In this document: one piece after another, positions 20,221 to 64,000 of the stretch | Numbering within the stretch: the first letter of the stretch is position 1 | Layout: each line of letters begins with the position of its first letter | Assembly: GCF_000204055.1 (NCBI RefSeq) | Contig: NW_006768862.1 | Span: 63,885-127,884 of the forward strand | Length of the DNA: 64,000 bases | Origin: Melampsora larici-populina 98AG31 | Taxonomy: Eukaryota > Basidiomycota > Pucciniomycetes > Pucciniales > Melampsoraceae | Direction of reading: 5' to 3' | Made by a program: the position numbers and the translations under genes | Notes under the pieces: generated by a model | What the model saw: the letters and a program-made list of their open reading frames with translations, nothing else | Told to the model about the DNA's origin: nothing | Databases searched by the model: none

Positions 20221-22831
20221 TTGTCACGTGTCCTAGCTTTCCCCAAGGGCCTCCATTACCGCTCAATGAGGATGTTTTCGGACCTGACAAAGCCGCCAAT
20301 GCGACTGCAAGTGAATGTTCCTCTACGTCCTCTTCGTACGAGTCCAACCGTCTCGAATGTCTACAGTTATTTTGGAAAGAAACAAGCTTGCCAACCATTT
20401 CTGAATTAGAAGAAGAGGGGGAACTATCGCACTCACATTGCGGGGGTGCTAATGCGTCAATTTTGATGCACACCCCCTCGTCACTTTTCGTAGCGTGCCC
20501 CTTGGGCTCCTGTCGAGGACCTGCGGGGATTTTTTCCGGACGTGACGAGACCAAATCTATGGCCGCAATGCTGGTAGGTAAGGCTTCACGGAGTCCATCG
20601 CGGTATAGCTTGAGTTTGGAGATGTGAAACACTGGGTGAGTCGAATCATTTGGTCGAAGGTGTAACCTGAAATCCCGACCAGAGTTCAATACCTCAAGGA
20701 CCTCGTATGGACCATCATAACGAGCCCGGAGTTTGCCAGTAACGCGACCCTTGCCGCCTACGATTTGTTGGCGATCAGTACTGTCAACTAATACCCAGTC
20801 TCCGACTTCGAAAGGTGTGCCTTCTCGGCGTCTTCGATTATACTGAGACGCTTGCTCAACCCTATTGTACCACAACCTGTCCCTCCAGATCGCCCATTCA
20901 TTTTCACGGCGTTCGATCCAGTGTCGTACGTCTTCGTTATCCTCAGCTAATGGATGTTGAACCGGAAATAAACGCGGTATGCGACCGTAGACGTAGTGGA
21001 ACGGCGAGACGCCGGTCGAGACGTTCATGGCCGAATTGATGGCAAACTCTGCCGACGGGAGCGACTGATACCACTTACCGTGCTTGTCTGCTACAAGGTG
21101 GCGCAGGATTTGACCTATAGTCTTATTCGAGCGCTCGCTGCGACCGTCCGCTTGCGGGTGATACGACGTGGAGAGTTGCATCCTTACCCCCAAGAGCTCG
21201 TGTAGGCGCTTCCAGAACTTGGATGTCCATGCCTTGTCACGGTCTCCGATGATCGATTCGGGTAGGCCGAAGATGCATGACCACGCGGCAAAGAGTCTGG
21301 TAGCGGTACGTTCGGCAGTGTCCTTCTGGCTTGCAGGGATGAGACGCACGAACCCAGTCAGCCGGCATGTACAGGAGAGGATCATATCATACCCAGCAAC
21401 TTTTGGAAACGGGCCGATAAAGTCGATGCCAATAGATTGCATTGGCTGATTGGGCACTGCTGAGCATTGAAGCTTCCCCGTTGTTGATGTGGTGCGTGCT
21501 TTATTTCGTTGGCATGAGTCGCAAGACTGAAGATGTCCTTCTACGTCTTTTGCCATTCCAGGCCAAAAGAAGGTGGTCCGCAGGGTCGTTAGTGTCTTTA
21601 GTACCCCCAGGTGTCCCAAAGCTGAGTGAGCTTGGTCCATGAAGTCTCGTCGTAAGTTACCGAACCGGGGAATAACCAGGCGCCCGTCAAGGTACATGAG
21701 CCCATCCTTTAGGATGCAGTCCTCACGTAACGGAAGAACCTTGCGCAGTTTGATGCAAAAGACGTCGTGCTGGTAACCCTCTTGAATTTCTTTAAGTTCT
21801 GAATCCTGCAAAGACCCGCGTACCTCACAAACAGAGATATCCTCTCGGCGTGATAACGCGTCTGCCACCGAGTTGTCTTGGCCTCGCAGATACTTGAAGT
21901 CCAAGTCAAATTGGGACAGAGTCTCCAACCATCTCGCTTGACGTCGGCTGAGATTGCGCTGGGTAAGAAGTGTCGTGAGAGAGTGATGATCCGACATCAC
22001 ATTCACCCGCATGCCCAGAAGTAGGAGTCGCCATTTGTTCAGTGCGTTTATAACTGCCAAGAGCTCTTGTTCATGGACCGGGTAGTTCTTCTCTTCCGGG
22101 TTCATTGTACGGCTCTCATAAGCTATGGGCGAAGCTGTCTCCCATCTCAAACCTTGAAATAAGGCTGCGCCTAAGCCGTCACCGCTCGCGTCAGTGAACA
22201 ACCACAGAGGTTCCTTCGAGTCATAATCCAAGTTCCGGAGGACAGGTAATGTCGTGATCAGCCTTTTGATGTTGCTGAAGGCTTGTTCTTCTTTCTCACC
22301 CCATTGGAAAGGTTTGCCTTTCAAGGATGTGCTGGTCAGTGGGGTCAAAGTTCCTACGTAGTGTGAGAGTCCGTCAATAAATTTTTTCATCCATTGGACG
22401 GTACCTAAGAACTTTAGCAGTTGTTTGGAGCTTGAGGGCAAAGACCATTTTGAAATCTTCTCTACCTTCTCGTCATCCGGACAAATTCCTGCCTCGCTGA
22501 TGTTGTGACCCAGGAATTTGATTTCTCGTCGAAATAACTTGCTCTTCTTGACTGAGCAGAATAACTTAGCTGACCGCAACCGTTCCAGGACCTGTCTCAA
22601 ATGAATTTCATGCTCTTCTACCGTCTGAGAAAAAATGACTATGTCATCTATATAGACAACACAAATCTTCCCCACTAATTCACCCAGGATTTCCTCATTC
22701 CGTGCTTGATGTGTTGCCGGACCATTTGTAAGTCCCATGGGCATGACAGTCCATTCATATAATCCCCAGGGAGTTTTCACCGCCGTCAGCGGGATGTCCT
22801 CTTCCCTCATCCTGTCTTGAAAGAAAGAGTT
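20207..22831 (-). pseudogene. Gypsy pol 3' part: RT (C-terminal two thirds), RNase H, integrase
   Basis: The minus-strand frame is open for about 875 codons. In order it has: RT fingers/palm with YEWTVMPMGLTNGPATHQ and the catalytic YIDD box; the RT thumb; RNase H beginning LWLFTDASGDGLGAALFQ; the integrase zinc-binding region (H..H, CDSCQRNK); and the integrase core with D in GIDFIGPFP, D in GDRDKAWTSKFW and E in HPQADGRSERSNKTI. A basic C-terminal domain ending FHISKLKLY follows. No chromodomain is apparent. The first codons of the open frame (to 22832) belong to the inserted element's terminal repeat, not to pol. This part has no internal stop, so inactivation came from the insertion. Confidence 0.9.
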
Positions 22832-23440
22832 CACTGCGTCCGCCACCTCCCTTCTCGACGTCAAGAAGGGTAGAATGTCTTGATTTGGTTCAACTTTGTT
22901 CCAACTTTATTGCGGGTTAGTTCCGCTACTGAGTATCCCACTCAGCATAGACTGAGAGATGCATGAGTGATTGATCAGAAGTCATTGAGCCTCAGGGAAT
23001 TCCTCAGACATTAGATTCTCAGCCTCAGGATATTCCTTTGTTTTCTATTATGATCCAACCCTTTTGACCAACACATGAACTCAAGTTCAAGTTGATCAAC
23101 TCGATTCATCACCGTCACCTAAAAAATCCTTCATGAAATCAAATCGATCAAAAGAATACCTAAACCAAAACAATTAATTAATCAAATTCCAACCTTTCTT
23201 TGCAAATCTCAAAATACTTTCTTATTAAAACTTTTTTTATAAATAACAACGCGCCAAGAAAGTTTTAGTGAACCAAATTTAACAATGGGCATCATTATCT
23301 TTTCTTAGACACGCGTTCTGGATTGCACTTTAAAGTAAAAGGGAACAAAGACCCCGGTCTTCAACATTTTAAGTCTTCCTTGCCCCTCCGAGCCCGCTTA
23401 CACTCCACCAATCACACAAATTTGTGCGACCGACGGCGGG

Positions 23441-24266
23441 ATGTCACATAGGGACTCTGGCGCATCGTCTCTTCCGGCAGATACCAATCCAGGATTTTAT
23501 GAGATGTCAACAAATGAAAAAGTGCATGAACAAATGAACTTAGACCAACCACGGGTTGGTTTACCTCAGCTACCAGTGTACAAACATAGTATCTTTCATA
23601 GAGTTATTAAAGATTTTATGGTCCAAAGTATGGATGATTCTTTAACTTCAATAGTATCAAACTGTCATCAAGTTCTGATCTTGTCTTCATCTTGGGGGCG
23701 GGGAAATAGGTGGCGATTTTTTGAATTCGGATGGGACAGGTTCTACTTCGATTTATGGTCAAAAATTTGAAGATGAAAATTTCGAATTGAAACATGAAAC
23801 TGCTGGACTCCTTTCAATGGTTAGCAAAAAAGACAAACCAATGAAATTCACATCGAGTTATGAAAAAAACTGATCTTGATCTTTACTTATTGATTTCCAT
23901 TAGGCAAACTCTGGACCTAATACCAATGGTTGTCAAGTAAGCAAACACGCGTTTCAAACTTCAATTCGCTCTGATCAAATTTAAGCCGTTATTGACTCAA
24001 AATTCTCTCATGTAGTTTTTCATTACTTCTGCAGCTTGTGATTTTTTAGATCATAACCATGTTGTTTTTGGGAAAGTATTGGATTCAGATGGACTTTTAG
24101 TAATGAGAAAGATCAAAAATGTACCTACTGGTCCGAATAATCGACCTAAATTGACAGTCAAAGTTACTGGTTTGTTTATCTTTTTACTCTTTTGCTTTTT
24201 AATTCACAGAATTGAATCTTATGACATTTTTTGATTTACTTATTTGCAGAGTGCGGTGGAATGTGA
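23441..24266 (+). pseudogene. Captured cyclophilin-H-like peptidyl-prolyl isomerase fragment
   Basis: The exons read are about 23590-23627, 23710-23819, 23904-23936, 24016-24169 and 24250-24266, all with GT..AG junctions and phases that match. They give FHRVIKDFMVQ, then [63 protein letters not shown] and a natural end ECGGM-stop. This is the C-terminal two thirds of a cyclophilin of the spliceosomal PPIH type (the PTGPNNRP tail is characteristic). It retains catalytic residues of that half (HR in FHRVI, Q and F in CQFF). The N-terminal strand region is missing. The sequence from the in-frame ATG at 23441 (SHRDSGASSLPADTN) is unrelated, so a chimeric transcript is conceivable. No lesion was seen in these exons. 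Confidence 0.85.
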
Positions 24267-24659
24267 CTGGTTAATAAAGAATTCATTACACTTTCACACT
24301 TAGATGACCCACAAGGATTCAACAAGAATTGCCTCACTTGGCCAGTTGGGTTATACATTAAATCACTCATATAAGATTGTATTACAGCAACAGTGATGAG
24401 TCCATAAATTCAAATCTTGTATTATTTTGTTAGCATTATCAAATTGTTGCAAGCTCCTCTTTGCACACCATATCATAGCTAGTCAAGATACCCTAAGTCT
24501 TTCGTGCAACACTATATCATAGTACATACAACCAATTGTAAGCTGCAATTTCAGCTTTTGAAAAGAGATAGAAATGATTAACTCACCATAGAGTTATCTA
24601 GATTAGAAAAGCAATCAAGTAGTTGTTTGCATTTCATGATTCACGGTTATTTGCGGCTC

Positions 24660-26285
24660 TGATTCAGGAGCTAGTACAGGAAGTGTGTCCAGTTGCGATG
24701 GAGTGATCGTGGGTTGATCTCCGGGATCTCTGTAGAAGGTGGCTTCAAAGAATCTGATGCGCTGGCGACTTGATTGTTAGCATTTGGTGATTTTCGTCGT
24801 GGCGTGTCTGAAAGAATCACCTCTGGTTTCGGAGGATGACTTAAGCTTGAAAGAATCGACTCTGATAGTTCGAGTAAAGATGTAAACTCATCAGAAGGTT
24901 TTTTGATTTTCAAGTCACCATATATTTCTACTCTTAATGAATGTTCTAGCATTGGTAAAACATGTTTTGTCCATAAATCAATCGATCTACAATTTCTCGA
25001 AGTTGATCAGATGAAGCTGATCCTCGATGATCTTCTTTCATTATACTTTTAAGGTGTTCAGAGTTACTTGTAAATGTTGAATGAAGAGGACTAGGTGGTG
25101 GAAGACTTAAGGTAAGCTTTCTTAATTCTTCATTGATGGTTGTAAGGATTTGAAGTTGATAAGATGAGAGTTTGGAATACGATTCTATGATTGGTAAGAG
25201 TCTTAATTCGTTAAGAGCAATGAGTTGACTGTTCAGAAATCTTGCCAAGGGTGGAACGAATGTGAGAAGATGTGATGGTAGTCAGCTCGGTGAAGTTGAT
25301 GGTGGGTTTGTAGTCAAATCTATTGTTAATACTTGTCGTAGGGTATCTGGAGCAATTAAACAATGTTCAAGAGGTTGTGTAGAGGGTGGGTGTAACGATT
25401 TTCGACGAGGTTGAAATGCGGCTTGTTTGAAGGAAGACGAAGTTGGGGTTTGAATTAGGATTGGCTTTAAATCCGATTGAAATTGTTCAAGACCTGATTC
25501 CATTCTTAGTTTAATGATGTCTTCTAATGTGTTAATAAAAGTAGGGTCTTATCGCACTAGTGAAATCCATACCCCGTTTTGCAAATGCAGCTGCACAGTA
25601 TGAAGTGAGTTTTATAAAAGAGGATAGAGTAGAGATTGTCACGAGTAGTTTAACATGATGAGTCAGAGTAGAAATTAAGAGATGTGTGGCTTGAGTAGCA
25701 AAAAAGTTTAATGGTGAAACTGAATCTTTGAAAAAAGCAGGCGAAGATCCTCCAGTAGAATTCGAGAGATGTTGATCAGGATTGATTTTGAGAGTTGAGG
25801 TGTCCGAGTTTGTCGATTTCAAAAAGATTTTATAATATATCGAAATCGTATCACCCACCAACTCACGCCAAATCTCGAGCCATTTACGTAAAAACTTTAA
25901 ACGATCTTCATTGTGTATTGAAGTGAAGCATCTGAGAATTGATCAAGATGAAGTGGATTAGAAGTAGAAGATAATGCTGAAGGTGAGAAACCAGTTGAGA
26001 GTTGAACTTGTTGAAGTGCATTGGCTAAACAAGACCATCGACTTGCCAAAAAAGTGATCCGTAATTCAGGTTTGGTAAGTGATTCGATTGAAGGAGAATC
26101 AATTGATTGGGAGAATAGATTTGACATCCTACGCAGAACGCCAATGGTTCGAACAGCTGAAGGAAACTTTAAGCCTCGATCCTTAAGACTATTGATCAAA
26201 TTATCTCGTAAAGCTTGTAAAGCACGATCGACTTCTAATCTGATTTGATGTAAAACACCACCAGCTGATGGATGACAATCTTGAA
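24660..26285 (-). pseudogene. Captured COG8 (conserved oligomeric Golgi subunit 8, Dor1-like) fragment
   Basis: The minus strand carries the middle and C-terminal parts of COG8 in order. These are ALQALRDNLINSLKDRG (26240), VRTIGVLRRMSNLF, LRITFLASRWSCL, RLKFLRKWLEIWREL (about 25890), TSYCAAAFAKRGMDFTSAI (about 25600), DIIKLRMESGLEQFQSDL (about 25500), LLTFVPPLARFLNSQLIALN (about 25240) and VLPMLEHSLRVEIYG (about 24960). COG8 acts in the COG tethering complex for intra-Golgi retrograde traffic. The fragment cannot make that protein. The frame changes near 25915, 25545 and 24965 without clear introns, and a TGA interrupts at about 25280. The N-terminal third is absent. Confidence 0.85.
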
Positions 26286-26289
26286 GGGA

Positions 26290-26986
26290 CATGGGTTCAA
26301 AGCTTTTGTAGTGTACTTGTAGAGAAACTCTCCGATCATAGTCTGTGTAATGGCGTGAATGGCATTGGGATCGGATGAAACTGAAGTGGATTGATTGAAG
26401 GAATTAGCAATTGGATCTGCAATATTACCAGCCTCACTCGTTCGGTCTGTTCAATCTGAGGTTACAGAATGACCACGAGATCTCTGACTCAGACGATCAG
26501 ATGAGCCTTGACCTAGAGCGGTATGGTTGGGTGTGTTGGCTCGAGATCTGTGCTTTTTGCTGGCGTATTTCTTAGGTACATGTAAGTTTGCCACCCCGAA
26601 TTGGCCCATTTCATCAACTTCAGATACATCTGATTCGTTGAATGAATTGTTAGATTGCGCGAGGTTGATCCCATTCTTGATCTGACTATTTGAAGCATTA
26701 GGTATAGTTCCACCACGTACTAGAGTTGATTGTTTGAACTGAGTAAAGGCCAGGTACGTCGTAAGTAACTTCATCTCGTTCGCAATGCATCCTTCGGAGG
26801 AATATTGAATGAATGGGGTCCAAGGGGGGGGACGTTTAGTTGAAGAGAATCAGGCGGCACGCTGATGCGCAGGCCTGAGCTGTCCAGGTTTCCAAATAGC
26901 TTAGGCTGCTTAGGGTTGCTTAGGGTTGCTGAGGTTTTGAATGAGTGGAAGAAACAATTTTTTTGAAAAGACCTTTCTCGCACCAA
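26290..26986 (-). pseudogene. Captured Num1/Mcp5-like fragment ending in the start of a PH domain
   Basis: The minus strand reads a Ser-rich linker (NSSQ..., SQRSRGHSVTSD) with one in-frame TGA at about 26451, then SVSSDPNAIHAITQTMIGEF and LYKYTTKAL at about 26315. ...AITQTMIGEFLYKYTRK... opens the C-terminal PH domain of fungal Num1/Mcp5/ApsA cortical dynein-anchor proteins. The rest of the PH domain is missing, and the sequence joins directly to COG8-like sequence near 26285. The upstream open piece 26986-26771 (LRISVPPDSLQLNVPPLGPH) probably belongs to the same gene but is in another frame. Identification rests on the PH-start motif. Confidence 0.65.
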
Positions 26987-27040
26987 AGTCCAACCATTCT
27001 ACCCTTCTCGACGTCGAGAAGGGAGGTGGTGGACGCAGTG

Positions 27041-28955
27041 GTTGGTTTGGTCCACAACAGACCAAATCTTGCCAGTTGCTACCAAGCGTACTGATTCATC
27101 TACATTGGGCAAAGGTGCTCTGTCTTTGACCGTGTACTTGTTCAGAGTACGGTAATCACACACCCACCGTGGTAATTCAGTGGGATCTTTCTTGGGGATT
27201 ATTAAAGACGGGGATGCATACTGGCTTTGAGACCGTCGAATCCTACCAGCCTTCAGATGCTGGTCAATCAGCCTTCTCCAAGATTCACGGTGCTTTTGAG
27301 GATACCCAAATTGTTTCTTGTTAATGATCACATTCGGGTCCGTCAAGATGATTTTATGTCGTACTTGTCGTTTCACATCCGGCAGACCGTCCGGGAATGT
27401 TTCATCCGGCGGCTCGCCTTCCTCCACCGGAGGAAGTTCTGCCGGGAATAGATCTTCAAAGTCTTTAAAGACTGCTGCTTCTCGGTCATTCAACTCTTGT
27501 GCCTTCGAAATCTTGTCAAGATTTTCAATGGCACACAACAAGCGATTCAATTCTGATTTCATTCCTTTTTCATAAAAAACTTTCCCACTGGGTTCATGTA
27601 AAACACAACGCCTGTGAAGCGATACATCTAATTTAAATTTTGAAAGAAAAGGCGACCCAAGGATCATGTCGTAAGTTGAGCTGAGAGGTGCCAGTTTGAA
27701 GAATACTGCTCCAAAACGCATACTGGGTTGATCGCATTTTAGGTTAGCCATAGCGAACTCCTTCAGGACCAAAGGAGTTCCTTCTGTTGAGATAGCTAGG
27801 CGTACCTCTACTGGGGACACCAAAGGCCTTCGGGTGATTTTTAATTCATTCGCCATGTTGTCTGACAGGAGGTTCGTTCCCGCTCCTGAATCGATGAGGG
27901 CCCGAACAGTTTTACCATTACACATCAGCTCTAGGATGATGGGCAAGACAGATGTTGAAGGTACACACCTCAGTTGCCCCTCCCCCAATTCTTCAGTCTG
28001 GGTGCTTTGAAATCGAATTGCCTCCTCGTACGCGGCAATGTCTTCTGCTAGCATGTCTGGGAAGGTCTCAATTGCCGCAACTCGAGAGGTCGTCGTTACA
28101 GCCGGAGGTCGACCTGCTGGTCGATGAGTTGGAGCTCCCGGTGTTGCAGTAGCGAGTGTTGAAACAGCCGCGCGGCGAGGTCTGGGACCTGGGTTGAAAT
28201 CCGGTGGGATTGACAAGAATCGCGGATTCTTCTTCGTACAGTTGAGATTATTGCACTTCTCTTTGCAGGTCGCGCAAATGCCTGACTGACGAAGGTACTC
28301 ATGGTACCTCCAGGCGTTGTCTGCTCGGTCTTCGTCCGAACGCTGACGGGGAGCTGGAGTAGATTTGAACGACGTCGTTGCTGGAGGTCCGTTATTGGTA
28401 GTAACAGAAGGCGTCTTCGATCTGACAGAAGGGTCTGGGACCAGTCGGCTATGGATGAGGAATCGCCAGATACCGTCCGCTGCATCTTTGAACTTCGGAA
28501 AGGAGAAAGGTTTGGTCTCTAACCGTCCTTCACGGTGAATCATGTCTCGGAAAAGTTGAGGAGCCCCCCACGTGATGTACTGAGCCAGTTGATGGTCGCT
28601 GAATTGGCCAAAGGGTTTGACTAGACGGTGTAATGATTGTGCTCGTGCTACATACTGGTCAAAAGTTTCGCCTGACTTGATTTCTAGACGTCGTAGGGAA
28701 TCCTCGGTGTCCGTTCGCCAAGCGTGAGGCAACGTACCCATGGCCATCATGTCCATAGCGCCTTCCCAGGATTGTAGCTTCAATTCGTCCCGATTACTTT
28801 GATACCACGAGGACATTTCTTCATTGTTCAGTAGAGCACCCAATAATTTGAGTCTCTCCCGGTCCTCTACGACGTTCTTGATATCGAACGTCTCCTCAAT
28901 CAAGGTTCGCCAGTGAAAAAGATCCCCGGGCTTTCCAAACTTTCCTGTAAACTTT
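27041..28955 (-). pseudogene. Gypsy gag C-terminal half, protease and RT N-terminus
   Basis: The minus-strand frame, open from before 28903 to the CACTA junction at 27043, shows a gag core (FDQYVARAQSLHRLV), a cysteine cluster CATCKEKCNNLNC, an aspartic protease with ALIDSGAGTNLLSD and MILGSPFLSKF, and an RT start with HLKAGRIRRSQSQYASP and WVCDYRTLNKYT. It ends in SVVDQTN, where the CACTA element entered. The cysteine cluster is CxxC-x3-C-x4-C without the usual His of a CCHC knuckle. Apart from the insertion and the upstream frameshift the frame is clean, suggesting a fairly young element. Confidence 0.88.
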
Positions 28956-42321: not shown

Positions 42322-43907
42322 ATGGTTAAGAATCATGGTCTTTCTGGGTTCAATGCGGATATGTTTGGCCACGGAAAAAAACGGTCCCGAAGAATCAAAA
42401 AATCCCCCTCACCTGACATGAACCGTGAAAAAGCGTTGAAGATCAGTCAATCTCTTGGTATATTGAGGGATTCAGAAAATCCTCCCCCGCCTCCCTCTCC
42501 CGAACAAGACGATAACGACGAAAACAACTGGCAAGATGTAGATGACGGCGGTGTTGGTGTTGATAGCCAAATCAGGCCGGACTCTCCAGGTGATCAGTAT
42601 GCTCGCCATCAAAAGTCACTCCGACGTGCAGAAGCCCGAGCTAAGGTCCAGCAAAGGTGGAAGGCACTAGAAGCTCAACTCACTGCATCGTACCTTTACC
42701 TTCAACACTACACCCGCCATTGGACCTCCCAGCCCTCGTTTAACTCATATCTTTCTGATGAGATTCAATGTCAATGTCCCCCTGCAAAACTTCGACAACG
42801 ACCCATTGATCTGATTGACCTTCTGAGTTGGTTTGATTTTTTCGTCATTTCACTTTCTTTTCATTGACTGATGTCTCGCGTCTTTAACTAGGCCACATCA
42901 GCAAACACCCGGTCACATTCTGTGAATGTGTACCTGATGTTGTCCGTTTACTTCATGTGGGTTATATATCCGGCTCGCCTCAACATCCTCGCACTGCTTT
43001 CTCTGTCCGACTTGTGCAATTCCACCACCACCTCTGGAACAACACAGTTGTATCAACTACGGGATTTATTGATGCGCTGATGGATTTTCTTGATGAACAA
43101 TGCGCTTCAAGATTGAAACCTCAACAAGTCAGAGGGACTTCCACGAAGAACTTCAATCGTATTCTCAGACATCCTTTTACTCAGGCAATCGACATACATC
43201 GCCAAATTCTCTTGGGCGAGCAAACTCTGTATGAAGAAGGCCTCGAACTAACTCCACTTGATATCTCTGCCGCTCTATGTTGTCGGTGTTTCGGTCCAGC
43301 AGAGGCAGAAGTCAAGTTGTCACCCAATGAACCGGACTTTATCATTGCGATGGATGGAAACTTCCAACATCGGCATCAAACCCGCGCCAGTAAGGACTCG
43401 CCTCAAGAAGACCAATATCCCGACTCCTTCATTCAACCTAGTAAGCTTGAAAAAGAGGTTGTTGCTTGCCAACAAACTGATGCTCAAGCCCATAACATCA
43501 AGGTACGTATTCCTGCCTTTGTTTGATCTCCAGTTGTTGGTCTTTACTAACGCTGAGCTGAATTCTTTCAATTTCAGACCTCCTGTTCTGATTCCCACAC
43601 CGCTGCAAATGATGTTCGTAATAGTTCATCATGGGATAGGTGTGATGACACAGGTTTGTTCGCGGCTGCTTGTCGTCATGATGCACCTCTCTACTTTGTC
43701 AATATCTATCAGAGTGGTGAAAAGTGAGCTTTCCTTATATGTGCATGTTGAGTAATGAAAGAAGCTCAGGACTGACACATCCTTCTCATATTTAGACTGT
43801 ATTATCCTGTGGCAATACTCAAAAAGCTTCGAGAATTGTACCCTGACCATTTTATAGGCATACTCTATGACATCGGCTGTCACTTTATGTTGTATTATGA
43901 TGTTTGA
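42322..43907 (+). pseudogene. KDZ transposase 5' half, truncated in the catalytic domain
   Basis: Exons 42322-42826, 42892-43502, 43578-43723 and 43796-43907 join in frame to 457 aa. The order is basic N-terminus, acidic DDNDENNW stretch, helical RRAEARAKVQQRWKALEAQL, then CxC-type cysteines (QCQCP, FCECVPD). The KDZ domain follows: DIHRQILLGEQTLYE, CCRCFGPAE, IIAMDGNFQHRH, GLFAAACRHDAPLYFVNIYQ and ILYDIGCHF. The MDGNFQHRH and YDIGCH blocks carry the presumed catalytic acidic residues. The reading stops seven residues after YDIGCH, where intact family members continue for several hundred residues. It is therefore a 3'-truncated copy of a DNA transposon transposase. No terminal repeats were identified. 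Confidence 0.85.
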
Positions 43908-46964: not shown

Positions 46965-49900
46965 CTAGGAATTGAAGTTGGTACTGACTAAGTTCCTCAG
47001 GCTGACAATCGAAACAGTCGCTTGAAGTATACCTAAGCTCCCTTCCTTGTTTTTCTTGAGTGCTATATGGCCAATGATATTTTGACTATCAATCACCTGT
47101 GGTTCCTCTGTTTGGTCATACACTATTGTGGCGTATAGCTTGGGATGGTTTTTATAAAAGTTCTTGGGTAAGTCTGTTGAGCTCAACGGGGCAAAGGGTG
47201 CTACTGAAACGAATGTTGTTGGGATGATAGCTGTACGAAAGTGAGAAATAACATATCCAAAACGATGCTCGCCACAGAGCTCATACTCAATCATACTGTT
47301 ACCTTCATGAACGGTGTGAACGCTAAAAGTTTTTCCAAGAAGTCGAAGCCGCTTGATGGTTTGAGCTGAATTTGGAAGTCTCTGACTTGATGGAGTAGTG
47401 TCATTGTCGAGGTTTGTGAAGTGGCCGTACCTCCCATCTAGGTTACAATTCAAGTATTCCACCCAGCTCTTGTATGTACTCGCATCTAAAGGTTTCTCTA
47501 CCGTCCACTTTTCATGGGGCGTCCCTGAAAGTCTTTCGATAACTTGAGCCTTGATTGATTGATTGGCTTGACTGAGAAAATTAGGTGCCCTGTCTATCAC
47601 CGCCTGAAAAAAGCCTCGACGAATGAAAGATGTACACATCGTCTTGTCCAAATTGTCTGTCACGAAATAAGATTTCAGTGATATTCGCGCTAAGGTGTTG
47701 AATGTTATGGTACTTACTCAAGTGATAGTTCTTGGGCAGATTAATCAATACACCATTCATTCGTTCCCCTGCCCAACTTGCTGTGTAAGTAGGAGGGCCA
47801 AGAAGGCTTGCAATTCGTGGTATATGTTGTGCAATATGAAGATTGGTCTTCACACTGACATCCGGCCAGTGCAACTGTATGTGTGTGCGGTAGTTTTTCA
47901 AAGTAGATGCTAACTGAACCCCATCATCGTGGCTGAATTTTCGAGACGCAGTTATATTGGCGATCTCACAAGCCTCTATTATACTTTGACACATTGCTTG
48001 GTGATTTAGATTTTCGGAGTGATATTTATCAGGGATGGTAGAAAGAACCATGTATACGGTGTATATCGAGAACCATTCGGAAGCCTTAGGTGTTCCGGCA
48101 CTCTTCATCCCTACGTTCTTTGGTGGGCGCGTCATCCATGTTGGAGTGACCACACGATCAATTGTTTCTTGTAAGTCAGCAAGGTCAGATAATGTAAATT
48201 TCAAGGGAGTTGCTATGTGATTGATACGCTGAGAGGGTGGTTCACATTCATTTGCTGCCATGTTATTTTGTAGCTTAGCACTTCTCTTGTAAGGAACTCG
48301 CTGATGCGGACCCCGAATGGTGGAGGCGGAATCTGATCCACTGTTGGGATTTGAATTTTCTTGGTTGACTCTTCGCTGACGGATGACCTTTTTCTTGACC
48401 GGGCCAGTGCTAGTGCCAGTGTTTGCTCTGGATGCCAGGCGCATAGACCTCCTGGGTTTTAACTGGGTCGGGACTGATTGATTTTCACCATCAGAGGCAA
48501 TCTGGAGTTCAGAGTCGCTATACGTAGCAGGAATAGCTGTCCTGCTTCGTTTTATAACATCAAGCCTGTTTGTCGAGTTCCACGAAGACATGTTACGCTT
48601 TCTGAGAATTGGAATCCAGTCAGTATCCTGGCTATGAAGGCAGCGCTTATTAACTTACTGAGTTGATCCGCGTATATTTTCAGTGATGGTTGAATCAGAA
48701 CCTACTGAGATGGATGCCTCGTAACCGCCATCTACTGAAGACTCTCTTTGAGTTGTCGATATGGAAGATCTCGATGTGGAAGCGGATAGCTCTGGATCAG
48801 CAAGAGCTGACAAGATTTGGTGACCGTCTCTGGAAATTGGATTGACCGGGGTATTTTCTGTGCATTCTTGACTATCAGAAGGGCCAGGAGAACATCGAGC
48901 TTTCAAAGCAGCAGACGCGTGCATTGCCTTCAATTTGTCTCCAGCCTCTATCATCCCAAGACAAGAAGTCGCGTGGTCTGACAGCATTCCTAAGAGGATA
49001 CAATGCATTACGTCGACGGTGATAAAATCTATAGGCTGCCAATACGGTAGCTCGGAAAGAACAGTCCATCGCAGGCCGAAATTGCGAAAGATCTTGTTTT
49101 GCTGTCCGAGGGATGTCGCGTTCTGCCATTCATTCGAATGCTGCTGATGATTCAGCCTTTCAGGCCATTTTTCAATATCGAGTTTGGTGAGATCCGCTCT
49201 CAATAGTGCACAGTGTGCGCAGAACATCGTAGCTGAGTGCCCAGCTAAACCAGTCACCTTTCTCATAGCAGGAAGGTCAGCCATTATTGGCCAAATTGCC
49301 GCCCGTATTACACGGCCGTTTTGGTGCCTTTGAGTTGATGTAAAGAAGATTCCGCTCCATAATTATTGGAACTGAGATACCAAAGGCTTCAAGAGATGGT
49401 TGATTTGTTCCAACTTAGGTTCGTGTGGACCGGGAATTATTGCAAACAGGAAGGTATATTCCGCTTTGTATCGCATGTTGGGTGGTAGATTGAGGCAAAT
49501 CAAAAGGAGGGTTCCACTGGAGATATGTCGTTTGGCTGATCGTCCGTGGGGGTTGAACCAGTCGCAGTAGAGTCCAAAAACCAGATTACCACTGGTCAAT
49601 GTGTAGGGTTTGTCTTGATCTCCAAACGTCTTCCAGATTTCGCCATCCCATATATCGGTCATGGTTGAAGCATCAGAAGGCTGTGATCGTAGAAGAGGCG
49701 CATCAAGTGAGTCCTCAAAGCCAGGCAAGAACATCATCTTCGCCAACCATGTTTTGAGTGACTGGTAGTGAAAAAGACGGAGCGCCTTTGGTTTCGAGTC
49801 AGTTGTGTAAAGTCGTGTGTTACATTTGCTGCGAAGAACCTTTTTAAGTTCTTGTTTCAATTGAGTCGGGTCTTTCAGAAATCGCATTGCATCACAGTGC

Positions 49901-50870
49901 AGCTTGACGTTTGGCTGTTCTTCAGTGACTGCTGTCCCATGAATAGCAAAACATTCAGGGCAGCAGACCTCGGAAGCTAGATCGACGTCCAGATTAAGCA
50001 TTTCGTATAACTTTGGAACGGTTGTTGGGATACCTTCCCAGTACCTATGGCCATTATGATTGTTCTCGATTGCGCACTGACGAGCCTGTAATTTAGCCAT
50101 ATGTAGTGCTGACCGGCTTGAACGCTCGCTTGCACCTCTTAATATACTGGACTGGGCGATTTGCAAAAGTGAGATCATTATGGAGGGACGAAGAAGATAG
50201 ACCTCCTGCATTCGAAAAGCATCGGTACAGAATTTGCTCAAGTGTGAGATTTCGTGGTGACAGGGAGGTTCATCTTGCACATTATCAACCTCGAAAGTGC
50301 TTCCTCGACGGCCTCGGCGGTCACGAGAAGACAGGACAAGATCATCATGATAAAGATGATGATTCGTTAAGTTTGTTGAACGACGTATTTGCGGCGTTAT
50401 ATCGCCAGTGCTTAAGGACCTTCGGCGGGCCTGAAGACATTTCCAAATTCCAATCAATTCACAGCTTGATATTTGGTTGCTGATGCATTGAATGTGAATT
50501 TTGAGCTTACGTATGATGGTTTTCCTTGGATCCCAATCCTACCAGCGTTTGGTCCCGTACTACTGATACCACGTACATCAGTAGAGTGACCAAGTCTTCC
50601 GCGAGAACTAAGACTACTACTGTCGCTAAAATGACGGGGTGGTTGTTGACGAAGCCTGCGAACTTGTAAGTCGTGAATCCTTCCGTTGGTAAGGTTCCTT
50701 GCTTTTCCTGAATACGTTACACCTTCGTATTTAAATTTTTCGGCTGAGCACTTCAGCTCAGTACAAGTACACACCAGTAGGGAACCCAATGTGTACGATG
50801 AATCCATTAAGATGTTGATCGAATAGGTCTGTAAGCATATGTTGAGATAGTTGGGGAGTGCGTGGATCAC
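46965..50870 (-). pseudogene. Tnp2/CACTA (En/Spm) transposase, nearly complete, one nonsense codon
   Basis: Exons are 50870-50511 (a better start is Met at 50807), 50430-48659, 48601-47718 and 47656-46965, with GT..AG borders and matching phases. The N-terminus has cysteines CTCTELKC. The Tnp2 core begins with CCPECFAIHG, continues GNLVFGLYCDWFNPHGR and IPGPHEPKLEQINHLL, then ADLPAMRKVTGLAGHSATMF with CAHC, and DFITVDVMHCILLGML. The DUF4218-like part has NLHIAQHIPRIASLLGPP and WAGERMNGVLINLPKNYH. These proteins cut CACTA element ends. A TAA at 49363-49365 interrupts the second exon between VSQFQ and LWSGIFF, with the frame fully open on both sides. This suggests a recent loss, or a read-through or sequencing issue. 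Full terminal repeats were not found. Confidence 0.85.
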
Positions 50871-54906: not shown

Positions 54907-56738
54907 TCAGTTCTTAAAATGCATGAGAACTTTCGTTATACGTTCAAAGTGAATATGCATTTCTTCCAACAGACCCTCCATAATTTGATGACAGCTGCAT
55001 TTCGAAGCTGAATGTGAATGTACAAGACATCAATTGAGGATTTCCATTTGGTAGACCGAGTTTGAGGGGATACTTACAATCACGATCAGAGGTGTTCTCG
55101 TATGAGTCGCGCGATGAGGTGGGAGATGGCTGTCCATGATAGTCGGTAGGAGAAGTGGCTGATGTGGGAGCAATTGAAGGAGTCAGGAACTTGAGGGCCG
55201 GATCAATGGATTCCTCAACACCCCCAAAGACTGGCCTAGACAAAAGACCACGATTTGAGCCGCGCAATGAGGTGGGAGATGGCTGTCCAGGATAGTCGGT
55301 AGGAGAAGTGGCTGATGTGGGAGCAATTGAAGGAGTCAGGAACTTGAGGGCCGGATCAATGGATTCCTCAACACCCCCAAAGACTGGACTAGACAAAAGA
55401 CCGCGATTATTGTCGGTAGGAGGAGTGGCTAATGTGGGAGCAATTGGAGGAGTCAGGATCTTGAGGGCCGGATCAATGGATTCCTCAACACCCCCGAAGA
55501 CTGGACTGGTCAAAAGACTGTGGCTGTCCGTGGGTTGATTGATATCTGGGGTGTTGAGGATGCTTCTCTTTCGATTTCGATTGTAAGGGCTCTCTTTGAC
55601 TAAAAGTAAACACGTCATTTGGGGAAAAAGTCACATATCTTGATGGAGGTTGCATACCTTGAGACCCAAACTCGAGAGCATCTAATACCGGTCTCCTTAC
55701 ACGATTGATGCCAGGTTTAGAATTGGATGGATGAATTGAGAAGATCTGGCTGCCGTTGTCTTCGATCCTGTGTTGCTTGGTTGGCCGGACTACAACAAAA
55801 AGGTTGGTTATTGAAGTGCAATCCACATATGTGGCACCAAACTCACGGTCAAAACCCTCAACAATAGAAAGAGATCTACGCCTTTTTAAAGTAGGACTAC
55901 GAGCTTCATCTGTAGTCACGAATTCGAAAGTTGTTTGTTGTTTGGGAAGTGTGAGAAAAACAGAGACACACATTGAGATTCAAAAAGTGGAATGTCAGCG
56001 TTAGAGTACATACTATGCCGCTTAAGAGTTCGAAGTCTGTCAAGTTTGAATCACCTTCTTGAAACATATATATTCCAGCTGGTGGTGACTCCAACATAAG
56101 GAACCGGTGCTGTGAGAAGGTGTCCGTAGAGCTATGATCAGACATGACCTCAGACCAATCGGCGGTGTCCATGGTGGCTGATAATGTGTAAATCAACAAT
56201 CGTAAATCAAAATTAAAGCAGTGAAACATCAAGAACTTACCATTGAGCTCATTTTTAAACTCGGACCACTTGACTGGGTCTGATAGACTGTCGCTTATTG
56301 ACTGACTATCAGTATTTTGAAACCTAGTCTTTGCGTGTTTTGCTGGGAATTTATTGCTTGTGTCGGTGACTACAGAAAATAACGGAGGCATAAGAACTTC
56401 AACACTTCATTTGGAACACCTCAAATGAACAAACCTCCAGAGATGGCGGAGAGGCGTCTTTTGAGACTCGATGAGGTCAATTGGGAACTTGAAGCGGCAA
56501 TACCTTTGATTAAAAGTCAATCAATTAGTATTCTTTTTGAATGATAATCACATCAGATCTTACAATTGTGAGATGGCTGGGTCATTCTTGTCACTCCCTC
56601 ATTTAAAATTGAGCCACTACTAGTGTCAAAATTAACATCAGCGAGTGACATCTTTGGAATACAGCTAGGTCGACCAGAGCGATGCGGAATTCGAGAATAT
56701 ACACGGCGCCCATGGTAACTGCCTACGATTTTTGACAT
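54907..56738 (-). CDS. Modular repeat gene A: 8 phase-1 exons, 437 aa
   Basis: Exons 56738-56564, 56503-56435, 56369-56241, 56177-56055, 55909-55847, 55789-55658, 55599-55078 and 55007-54907 total 1,314 nt (438 codons) with TGA at 54907-54909. Every one of the seven introns is phase 1. Exon 1 is basic (YHGRRVYSRIPHRSGRP); exons 2 and 5 carry KRRLS/KRRRSLS; exon 7 holds three copies of a unit with SPVFGGVEESIDPALKFLTP; exon 8 is KCSCHQIMEGLLEEM plus a helical tail. The protein is Ser/Pro-rich, with no signal peptide or membrane span, and probably nuclear by its basic clusters. An open stretch upstream (57120-56809) may be an extra 5' exon but did not fit in frame. The exon 4 donor (GAAG|GTGATT) was chosen because the alternative breaks the frame. 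I do not recognise the family. Confidence 0.7.
55095..55520 (-). repeat. Three intragenic repeats in gene A exon 7 (156 and 117 bp spacing)
   Basis: The string GTCGGTAGGAG[A/G]AGTGGCT (plus strand) occurs near 55141, 55297 and 55414. Units share about 95 percent identity by eye. The middle spacing lacks a 39-bp sub-block. Each unit length is a multiple of three, so the frame is kept. Confidence 0.8.
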
Positions 56739-62597: not shown

Positions 62598-64000
62598 GTC
62601 CAATCAACGAACTGATCTCTTAGATCCCTTTTCCCAAGAAGGTGAGTAATCTTGATCAGTTGACCAATACATGTGTTTGTACCAGAAATTCAATCTCTGT
62701 GTTAATATCTATCACGGTCTAGATCTCCACGATCGTGATCAAATTCTTCCTGATCTGGATGAACTGGACAACTATTACTCCAGCGAGCTGGAAAACCAGT
62801 ACAATTCTAGTGACGATTTGATGGATATGGAGCCACCATCACCTAATTCACAAATGGATCTGTCCGACGATGAAGACTGTAATTCATCACCTAATTCACA
62901 AATGGATCTGTCCGACGATGAAGACTGTACACCATCACCTAATTCACAAATGGATCTGTCCGACGATGAAGACTGTAATTCATCACCTAATTCACAAATG
63001 GATCTGTCCGACGATGAAGACTGTACACCATCACCTAATTCACAAATGGATCTGTCCGACGATGAAGACTGTAATTCATCACCTAATTCACAAATGGATC
63101 TATCCGACGGTGAAGACTGTACACCATCACCTAATTCTCAAATGGAACTATCTGACAATGGAGACCGTATGTTTGCACCACAATGGATATTTGACTCAGA
63201 CTGATTGGTGTTTCTTCTCATCTTACCTTCTCTCTGAGCCCTCCAGGTATGATCTCCTCACCATCATCTGCTAAAATTCTGAGTTGTAATCCAAAGACTT
63301 CAGCTAGTCACAAAGATGATCCAAGTAAGCCCTCTGATTAGCTTACAAATACATCTCAGGGATGTTGAGATTGATGATTTGGCTTCAGCTCCAACAGACA
63401 GCACCTTTTCACCATCAGACCATGTCAGATGCAATAGGGCAGTGGCACCCTCCCTGTCGTACTCAGATAGGGTTCTCCGCGAGACAGTTCAGGATCCAAC
63501 GCATGTGAGTCCCGATTTCATAGTTGATCAACATGTCATGTGTAGAGTGAATCATCGAAGCTGTTTGGTAGACACCTGTCTTAAGACATCGCACCGCCAC
63601 AGATGGTCGTCCTATCGCTACCAAAAAGAAGCTTCAAAGTAGGCAGTCACAACTTGGTCAGTGGGTCTTCCTCCAACCGTCTGGATGATAAGATGACTGA
63701 CACTATCCCCTCCCCTGCCTCATATATTAGATATGATTTCTGAGGAGGGTGAAGGAGATGTTGGAGATTCTAACAACGCCATCCTGAAATGTGGGTAATT
63801 CTACTTGATCTTACAGATTGAGTGATGTGTTTACATCAGAATGATTTTTAATTTCTAAACAGCTCCTCGTGGAGGACAACTAGAATTGTCAACTCAGTGG
63901 CTTAAGGAGCGTTCTTTTACTTTTGAGATGAATGCACGCCCAACTCCATCTTCTGCGTCTTTAAAGAGAAATCTATCTCAATTACAGGAAACACACTCCA
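62598..64000 (+). CDS. Modular repeat gene C, multi-exon, runs off the window
   Basis: The ATG at 62598 opens MSNQRTDLLDPFSQE with a phase-1 donor G|GTGAGT at 62641. The next exon from about 62723 reads LHDRDQILPDLDELDNYYSS and then seven 16-residue repeats of SPNSQMDLSDDEDCNS type, to a phase-1 donor C|GTATGT at 63167. Further exons follow: 63247-63312 (ISSPSSAKILSCNPKTSASH, phase-1 A|GTAAGC donor), from about 63359 (RDVEIDDLASAPTDS), a less certain stretch 63560-63790, and from 63863 APRGGQLELSTQWLKERSF to the window end. Acidic, Ser/Pro-rich repeats and phase-1 introns are shared with genes A and B. No family is recognised. The middle splice sites are uncertain and the 3' end is missing. 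Confidence 0.55.
62839..63174 (+). repeat. Seven 48-bp coding repeats arranged as 96-bp dimers
   Basis: Units start at 62839 and every 48 bp. Their last six bases alternate AATTCA and ACACCA, so protein units alternate ...DCNS and ...DCTP. The sixth has GGT for GAT and the seventh is diverged. The array lies within one exon of gene C. Confidence 0.92.

Follow-up and report, generated by a model that had tools for sequence, protein, structure and literature searches.

The window analysed here is a stretch of 64,000 nt from Melampsora larici-populina 98AG31 (contig NW_006768862.1, positions 63,885 to 127,884), in which a 4,209-bp DNA transposon carrying pieces of host genes (window positions 22832-27040; hereafter the C98 copy) interrupts the reverse transcriptase (RT) frame of a Gypsy element. 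The terminal arms of the transposon (22832-22886 and 26986-27040) extend over 55 nt with 89% complementarity, 44 of 46 positions are alike in the outer 46 bp of the two ends, and a GTT target-site duplication lies immediately outside them (22829-22831 and 27041-27043). Rejoining the flanks (90 bp each) across a single GTT gave one open RT frame (KIWSVVDQTNSFFQDRMREEDIPLTAVKT). An aspartyl protease is encoded by one of the split Gypsy frames; the other encodes RT, RNase H and an integrase whose core scores below its cut-off. The 30-base pattern of the joined empty site has one other match in the genome (C31:965194; 3 mismatches, single GTT), and its reversed control has none. The insertion into the Gypsy RT is real and clean, and the inverted ends, GTT duplication and restored RT frame described in an initial annotation of this sequence are borne out by these data. 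The features of the element and its borders are as follows (window coordinates, strand, basis in brackets).

22829..22831, no strand: left GTT duplication (flank sequence, empty-site pattern)
22832..22877, plus: left 46-bp terminal inverted repeat (TIR), CACTGCGTCC... (arm comparison, genome end matches)
22832..23250, plus: left family-shared end (inner border ~23226-23250)
23226..23582, plus: segment A, upstream region and exon 1 of an inferred SNF2-type helicase gene (C2, L043 6533-6884, 78%)
23441..24266, plus: chimeric frame (exons 23441-23627, 23710-23819, 23904-23936, 24016-24169, 24250-24266)
23579..26293, plus: segment C, single cyclophilin H / COG8 block (C72, L042 6318-3579, 84%)
24661..26293, minus: 3' part of COG8 (Dor1) with frame breaks (inner border approximate)
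26294..26722, minus: segment B, Num1-like coding piece (C2, L043 3056-3484, 92%)
26723..27040, minus: right family-shared end (family comparison)
26995..27040, minus: right 46-bp TIR (arm comparison)
27041..27043, no strand: right GTT duplication (flank sequence)

Five blocks tile the element: the left end, the helicase 5' end, the cyclophilin H-COG8 block, the Num1-like piece and the right end. The interior is wholly covered by family ends and donor matches and contains no transposase. The 2.7-kb segment C forms one continuous match to the resident locus C72, interrupted by small gaps only. At C72, cyclophilin H and COG8 lie side by side and converge, with order and orientation as in the element, and one event can therefore have captured both. 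The resident COG8 is a 793-codon frame with a strong Dor1 match (2.9e-39); in the element the Dor1 match persists at 25897-26292 (1.3e-06) and the frame is broken elsewhere. Segments A and B both match a single 4-kb stretch at C2, where their relative orientation is opposite to that in the element. An SNF2 domain lies in a frame about 1 kb downstream of the segment A match, from which we infer that segment A is the 5' end of an SNF2-helicase gene. Segment B comprises ~120 residues preceding the PH domain and only about the first 22 residues of that domain, which in the resident Num1-like frame (Mcp5_PH) starts at residue 1140. Judged by these matches, the cargo consists of parts of four genes from two loci, C72 and C2. 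A further COG8 match, at C21 (L044 3534-4264), was rejected as an additional donor because it is a degraded fragment. It lies near frames that by eye resemble Helitron helicase remains and may represent capture of COG8 a second time, by a different type of transposon.

The upstream region, start codon and exon 1 of the helicase run in frame into cyclophilin H, giving a chimeric frame of 166 codons plus the natural stop in five exons, separated by four GT-AG introns of 79-84 bp. A second copy of the element, at C47, shows 97.7% identity to the C98 copy over 3,736 columns and has unrelated flanks, which indicates that the finished chimera spread as a unit. In this copy the chimeric frame is likewise open and all eight splice sites are kept. 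The chimeric frame is real as sequence, is predicted as a transcript and extends further than the chimera that the initial annotation had in view. Once spliced, it matches Pro_isomerase with 1.4e-36 (profile positions 36-158 of 159); a stable cyclophilin enzyme is doubtful, because the first 35 of the 159 positions are absent. Three named M. larici-populina proteins match element cargo, which calls for caution in annotation: P0002 is the COG8 of the C47 copy, P0014 the cyclophilin of the C98 copy and P0138 the coatomer epsilon of the related C4 element, the latter two placed by sequence match. P0014 has 115 residues identical to the element-encoded ones and its public model covers the cyclophilin part only. 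In the public model P0138, an exon on the left of the C4 element is joined to coatomer cargo, a second predicted fusion.

These results bear on the initial annotation in several ways. Its cyclophilin-H-like and COG8-like regions are supported by the two domain matches, and its Num1-PH-like region is indeed Num1-like, consisting mostly of sequence before the PH domain. Resident relatives of the three genes whose parents it proposed to look for lie at C72 and C2. Its picture of three unrelated genes acquired in several steps is not supported, as two of the three, cyclophilin H and COG8, are ordinary neighbours at C72, an arrangement that it had itself named as telling against this picture, and the Num1-like piece shares its source locus with the helicase 5' end, a fourth gene at 23226-23582 that had been missed.

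We searched the 98.3-Mb, 243-contig assembly for relatives of the element; only the best candidates were scored, and copy counts are therefore lower bounds. The first 69 bases have at least 35 matches in the genome, and pairing of these end matches yielded at least 14 complete elements, which are 2.4 to 26 kb long and include the C98 copy, so that the other copies with the same ends anticipated by the initial annotation do exist. Members were oriented by their longer conserved left end. Perfect 3-bp duplications flank 11 of the 14 complete elements; those of C15b, C50 and C1 are imperfect. At the left end the other members resemble the C98 copy over 110-417 bp, at the right end over 111-319 bp, and several members also have older family sequence within the right end in common. 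The interiors are mostly unrelated and fall into 11 classes among the 14 complete elements, common interiors being found in C16 and C120, C1 and C49, and C15a and C45b. Donor-like loci were identified for all eight interior classes searched (8 of 11; C57, C49/C1 and C15b were left out), and at least four of the eight (C98, C50, C4 and C15a) hold pieces from at least two loci. Pfam recognises zuotin (RAC_head, ZUO1) in C86, BING4CT in C50 (UTP7-like), MitMem_reg in C45b and Coatomer_E in C4. Two more matches, to a tRNA endonuclease domain in C7 and to a bZIP domain in C86, do not reach the curated cut-offs, and a frame in C16 has no Pfam match. This is a Pack-type family, with the same ends and differing cargos that match other loci. 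Helitrons are not known to have inverted ends or target duplications, and the C98 element has both.

The C4 and C50 elements also carry pieces of the C2 Num1-like gene, located at the right and oriented as in the C98 copy. These pieces and that of C98/C47 fall in one 1.2-kb stretch (L043 3056-4271), and either an early longer capture was trimmed variously or the locus is a favoured template. A 96-bp resident stretch is absent from the C50 piece; RNA-mediated capture was rejected as its cause, since extra bases at the join point to a deletion. The one-piece two-gene blocks of C98, C86 and C50 are all convergent pairs, with rightward genes on the left and leftward genes on the right (the left gene of C50 has no Pfam support). 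The interval C1:3650632-3676731 is a C49-like element with an insertion of roughly 22 kb that includes a long terminal repeat (LTR) retroelement.

One member carries cargo that looks as if it had been captured from spliced RNA. The left gene of C10a (L023 963-1881) aligns to a resident gene at C42 (L049) in one run once four GT-AG introns of 75, 92, 112 and 172 bp are removed from the latter, two of them upstream and two downstream of the start codon; without this removal, the alignment breaks into five pieces. Identity is 74% with gaps; the join at the intron immediately preceding the start codon is exact, and the others lie near small indels. The intron loss would also be explained if an existing retrocopy had been captured. 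As the cyclophilin part of C98 keeps its four introns, the cargo of the family is in part genomic and in part apparently RNA-derived.

In two of the copy pairs compared, differences are concentrated at cytosines in TCG. Between C98 and C47 (window 22832-27040 versus L030), changes affect 27 of 108 TCG, 6 of 127 other CpG and 15 of 1,234 other C:G sites, and between C15a and C45b the respective counts are 13 of 86, 2 of 120 and 2 of 1,579. CpG change is also raised between C120 and C16 (10 of 63 TCG, 11 of 100 other CpG, 6 of 774 other C:G) and between C49 and C1 (3 of 35, 2 of 34 and 3 of 644), with an unclear TCG preference in both pairs. This TCG-preferring C-to-T change is a signature like that of repeat-induced point mutation (RIP) in a rust. 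According to the parts of the literature used here, TCG hypermutation has been reported in Pucciniomycotina (PMC12730594) and a very weak CpG bias in M. larici-populina (PMC4352252). Selection was rejected as the cause of there being fewer intron than exon differences between C98 and C47; the exon excess follows from TCG/CpG damage, because coding sequence has 27.6 CpG per kb and non-coding sequence 12.5.

For the C98 element, synonymous (Ks) and nonsynonymous (Ka) divergence from the resident genes was calculated from codons identical in C98 and C47, that is, from changes older than the copy split. The cyclophilin part differs from C72 with Ks 0.44 (about 70 sites), Ka 0.004 and Ka/Ks 0.009, without a single amino-acid difference in 111 codons. 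COG8 gave Ks 0.28, Ka 0.054 and Ka/Ks 0.19 over 517 codons, the Num1-like piece Ks 0.27 and Ka 0.039 over 138 codons, and the helicase exon Ks 0.24 and Ka 0.079 over 41 codons. Introns and intergenic DNA of the cargo diverge by 0.30 from the residents, which shows that Ks is not inflated. Across all fragments Ks ranges from 0.16 to 0.57. For a clean cyclophilin next to a broken COG8, the initial annotation had suggested different ages of capture, or selection; different ages are not supported by these synonymous values. The contrast is a present-day one: between C98 and C47, Ka/Ks is 0.52 for cyclophilin and 0.80 for COG8, with no clear constraint. Dating the captures by raw identity (78% for A, 92% for B, 84% for C) was likewise rejected, as the spread tracks coding content and synonymous rates are alike.

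If the cargo had been captured from a resident gene and had drifted thereafter, amino-acid change on the element side would be expected to amount to about half of the neutral divergence (assuming equal branch lengths and zero resident-side change). Eight of 11 fragments from the family show too few amino-acid changes for such drift (P <= 0.001). Observed versus expected nonsynonymous changes are 1 versus 50 for cyclophilin, 61 versus 151 for COG8, 12 versus 39 for the Num1-like piece, 31 versus 62 for the Sen34-like piece of C7, 35.5 versus 57 for the coatomer piece of C4, 50.5 versus 128 for the UTP7-like piece of C50, 61.5 versus 101 for the left frame of C50 and 5.5 versus 24 for a C81-derived piece. 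For single-copy elements, the resident frames were picked from many listed, and the frames of the left gene of C50 and the C81-derived piece are without Pfam support (at C81, a neighbouring frame was scanned). With M. americana as the outsider, COG8 has 16 element-side and 23 resident-side amino-acid changes and 13 sites at which all differ, after 26 copy-variable sites were set aside. COG8 protein identity is 88% between element and resident and 82% to M. americana, the element-resident split being the younger one.

Overall, we consider it likely that the element belongs to a family of non-autonomous Pack-type DNA transposons with CACTA-like ends that has captured host genes. Transposase made elsewhere would move such an element in trans. 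The interior would have been built when repair or replication switched from the element to other templates with very short homology or none, running from the left end through the helicase 5' end, the cyclophilin H-COG8 block and the Num1-like piece to the right end. The finished chimera would then have spread, one copy entering the Gypsy RT, and the copies would have taken TCG-preferring C-to-T damage after duplication. On the substitution patterns, it is roughly an even call whether the cargo itself was a working gene region until shortly before the copy split, in a genome that stood ~0.25-0.3 substitutions per neutral site from the residents. In the history that we favour, the cargo genes were functional in the genome of a relative, where the capture took place, and the family then carried them into M. 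larici-populina. The full proposal appears possible, if somewhat short of an even chance: the family members would be fossils of sister-rust genes, taken up as genomic DNA and, in at least one case, from spliced RNA, which entered by hybridisation or horizontal transfer and brought chimeric frames now catalogued as native genes.

Several observations weigh against parts of this account. Homology at the cargo junctions is weak: at the helicase/cyclophilin junction, TA(C/T)A, the two donors agree over 3-4 bp; 0-2 bp are in common at the COG8/Num1 and Num1/right-end junctions; and the position of the left-end/helicase junction within its T/A-rich stretch is not sharply defined. The left end of the C47 copy is missing, and the target duplication of that copy is not visible. 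The helicase exon (7 nonsynonymous changes observed, 10 expected; P = 0.18), MitMem_reg of C45b (29 versus 42; P = 0.02) and a C3-derived piece (19 versus 19; P = 0.53) do not reach P <= 0.001, and in coatomer epsilon amino-acid changes are in excess on the element side (14 versus 3 with P0134, 13 versus 3 with M. americana), implying that the coatomer cargo spent proportionally more of its history drifting. As for an autonomous partner, none of the best 150 of 195 tnp2 matches lies inside a TIR pair of the family (some stretches are masked), and the 22-kb C15b holds a KDZ transposase piece, nested or its own (6.4e-08; L016 7567-7968, plus strand).

The last two points would also fit ends derived from another TIR superfamily. 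The KDZ piece is the only transposase domain seen between family ends; the duplication of C15b is imperfect. We regard a Pack-type but non-CACTA family as quite unlikely. The ends read CACT(A/G), which with the 3-bp duplications agrees with CACTA/EnSpm; rust EnSpm families have been described with CAC..GTG ends and 3-bp duplications, according to the description available to us (PMC12730594), and the genome contains at least 150 tnp2-domain matches. Of the Pack-CACTA element proposed by the initial annotation, a non-autonomous TIR element with CACTA-like ends and host gene pieces with introns stands, and CACTA is a probable assignment drawn from the ends. Frames listed in the search for a partner came from C1, C15b, C16, C57 and four single-end loci. 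Pfam scans of ten frames of C15b, C1 and C57 returned no tnp2 and two transposon-type domains, both in C15b, namely the KDZ piece and a Tet-like 2OG-Fe(II) oxygenase (2.3e-28; L015 9344-9868, minus strand; nested or its own); a C1 frame that looked transposase-like by eye has no Pfam match. Long copies and single ends were rejected as the autonomous partner, given the lack of tnp2 in the scanned frames.

Three other origins of the cargo have to be set against capture in a relative. Ordinary capture from the present residents followed by neutral decay, as the initial annotation had pictured it, would explain why, besides C47, our DNA search returned only C72, C2 and the C21 COG8 fragment as cargo relatives. 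It is compatible with helicase exon 1 and the C3-derived piece, and the coatomer-epsilon excess speaks for it. We nevertheless consider it unlikely, because nonsynonymous change in cyclophilin, COG8 and the UTP7-like and Sen34-like pieces is far below the neutral expectation and COG8 changes do not fall mainly on the element side. The same deficit could reflect an old capture kept by selection, with the chimeric gene and perhaps antisense products serving host or element for most of its life; the open frame and intact splice sites in both copies and the near absence of amino-acid change in cyclophilin before the copy split agree with this. Yet the chimeric frame shows no clear constraint between C98 and C47, in a comparison with few changes (11 of 391 nonsynonymous and 4 of 107 synonymous sites; P = 0.54), and the truncated COG8 and Num1 pieces on the opposite strand were also once constrained, which is hard to credit to one chimeric product. 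Selection of this kind seems quite unlikely. Poplar rust is dikaryotic, and the donors might instead have been diverged paralogues or haplotypes of these loci within this species that were later lost or lie outside the assembly. We worked with a single reference assembly in which a few stretches are masked, and the spread of Ks between fragments does not by itself require a single donor genome. Lost paralogues would demand separate, long-conserved duplicates of several unrelated genes surviving only in elements, and we judge this origin improbable.

Plant Pack-TYPE elements can be multi-gene chimeras. As far as the open-access literature consulted shows, gene capture by TIR transposons is reported mostly from plants and less from animals and fungi, and our search of it found no fungal Pack-CACTA family with captured housekeeping genes. 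In the available account of plant Pack-CACTA and Pack-TYPE elements (PMC8903248), these are likewise non-autonomous TIR elements without transposase that hold host coding fragments, some misannotated as genes; here the host is a fungus, the cargo apparently stems from a relative of the residents and that of one sister element is intron-less. Animal Pack-TIRs, in the portion of PMC8277862 used, share gap filling or template switching with short microhomology (median 2 bp), multicopy spread by transposition and gene chimeras. The junctions of the C98 element resemble these gap-filling junctions, and a similar route may have been taken; the present case differs in that one shared-end family holds many differing cargos in one genome. 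Transduplication in Pyrenophora tritici-repentis, as excerpted from PMC3538342, also involves fungal DNA transposons with host-like genes. There, hAT and Tc1/Mariner elements amplify the same cargo and a long hAT encodes transposase, whereas the family described here has CACTA-like ends, no tnp2 transposase and many cargos. Rust EnSpm/CACTA elements are alike in ends and duplications; those described encode transposase and TET/JBP, and that description includes no captured housekeeping genes (PMC12730594, in part). Fungal Helitrons provide another instance of gene capture by transposons in a basidiomycete, in their case with rolling-circle transposition (PMC4289320, in part). With its 11 interior classes, the family is a natural library for the capture process, and the cargo can help to date and source capture. 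If it came from a sister species, the captured genes would be tracers of transposon transfer between rusts.

Other transposon remains occur in the window. A tnp2-type transposase remnant lies at 46965-50457 on the minus strand (Transposase_21, 5.8e-12; the match to Plavaka does not reach its cut-off) and a KDZ-associated CxC1 domain at 42957-43523 on the plus strand; by their ends, neither is linked to the element. Two further frames, at 62671-63204 (plus) and 54944-55618 (minus), encode the repeated peptides SPNSQMDLSDDEDC and PVFGGVEESIDPALK, respectively.

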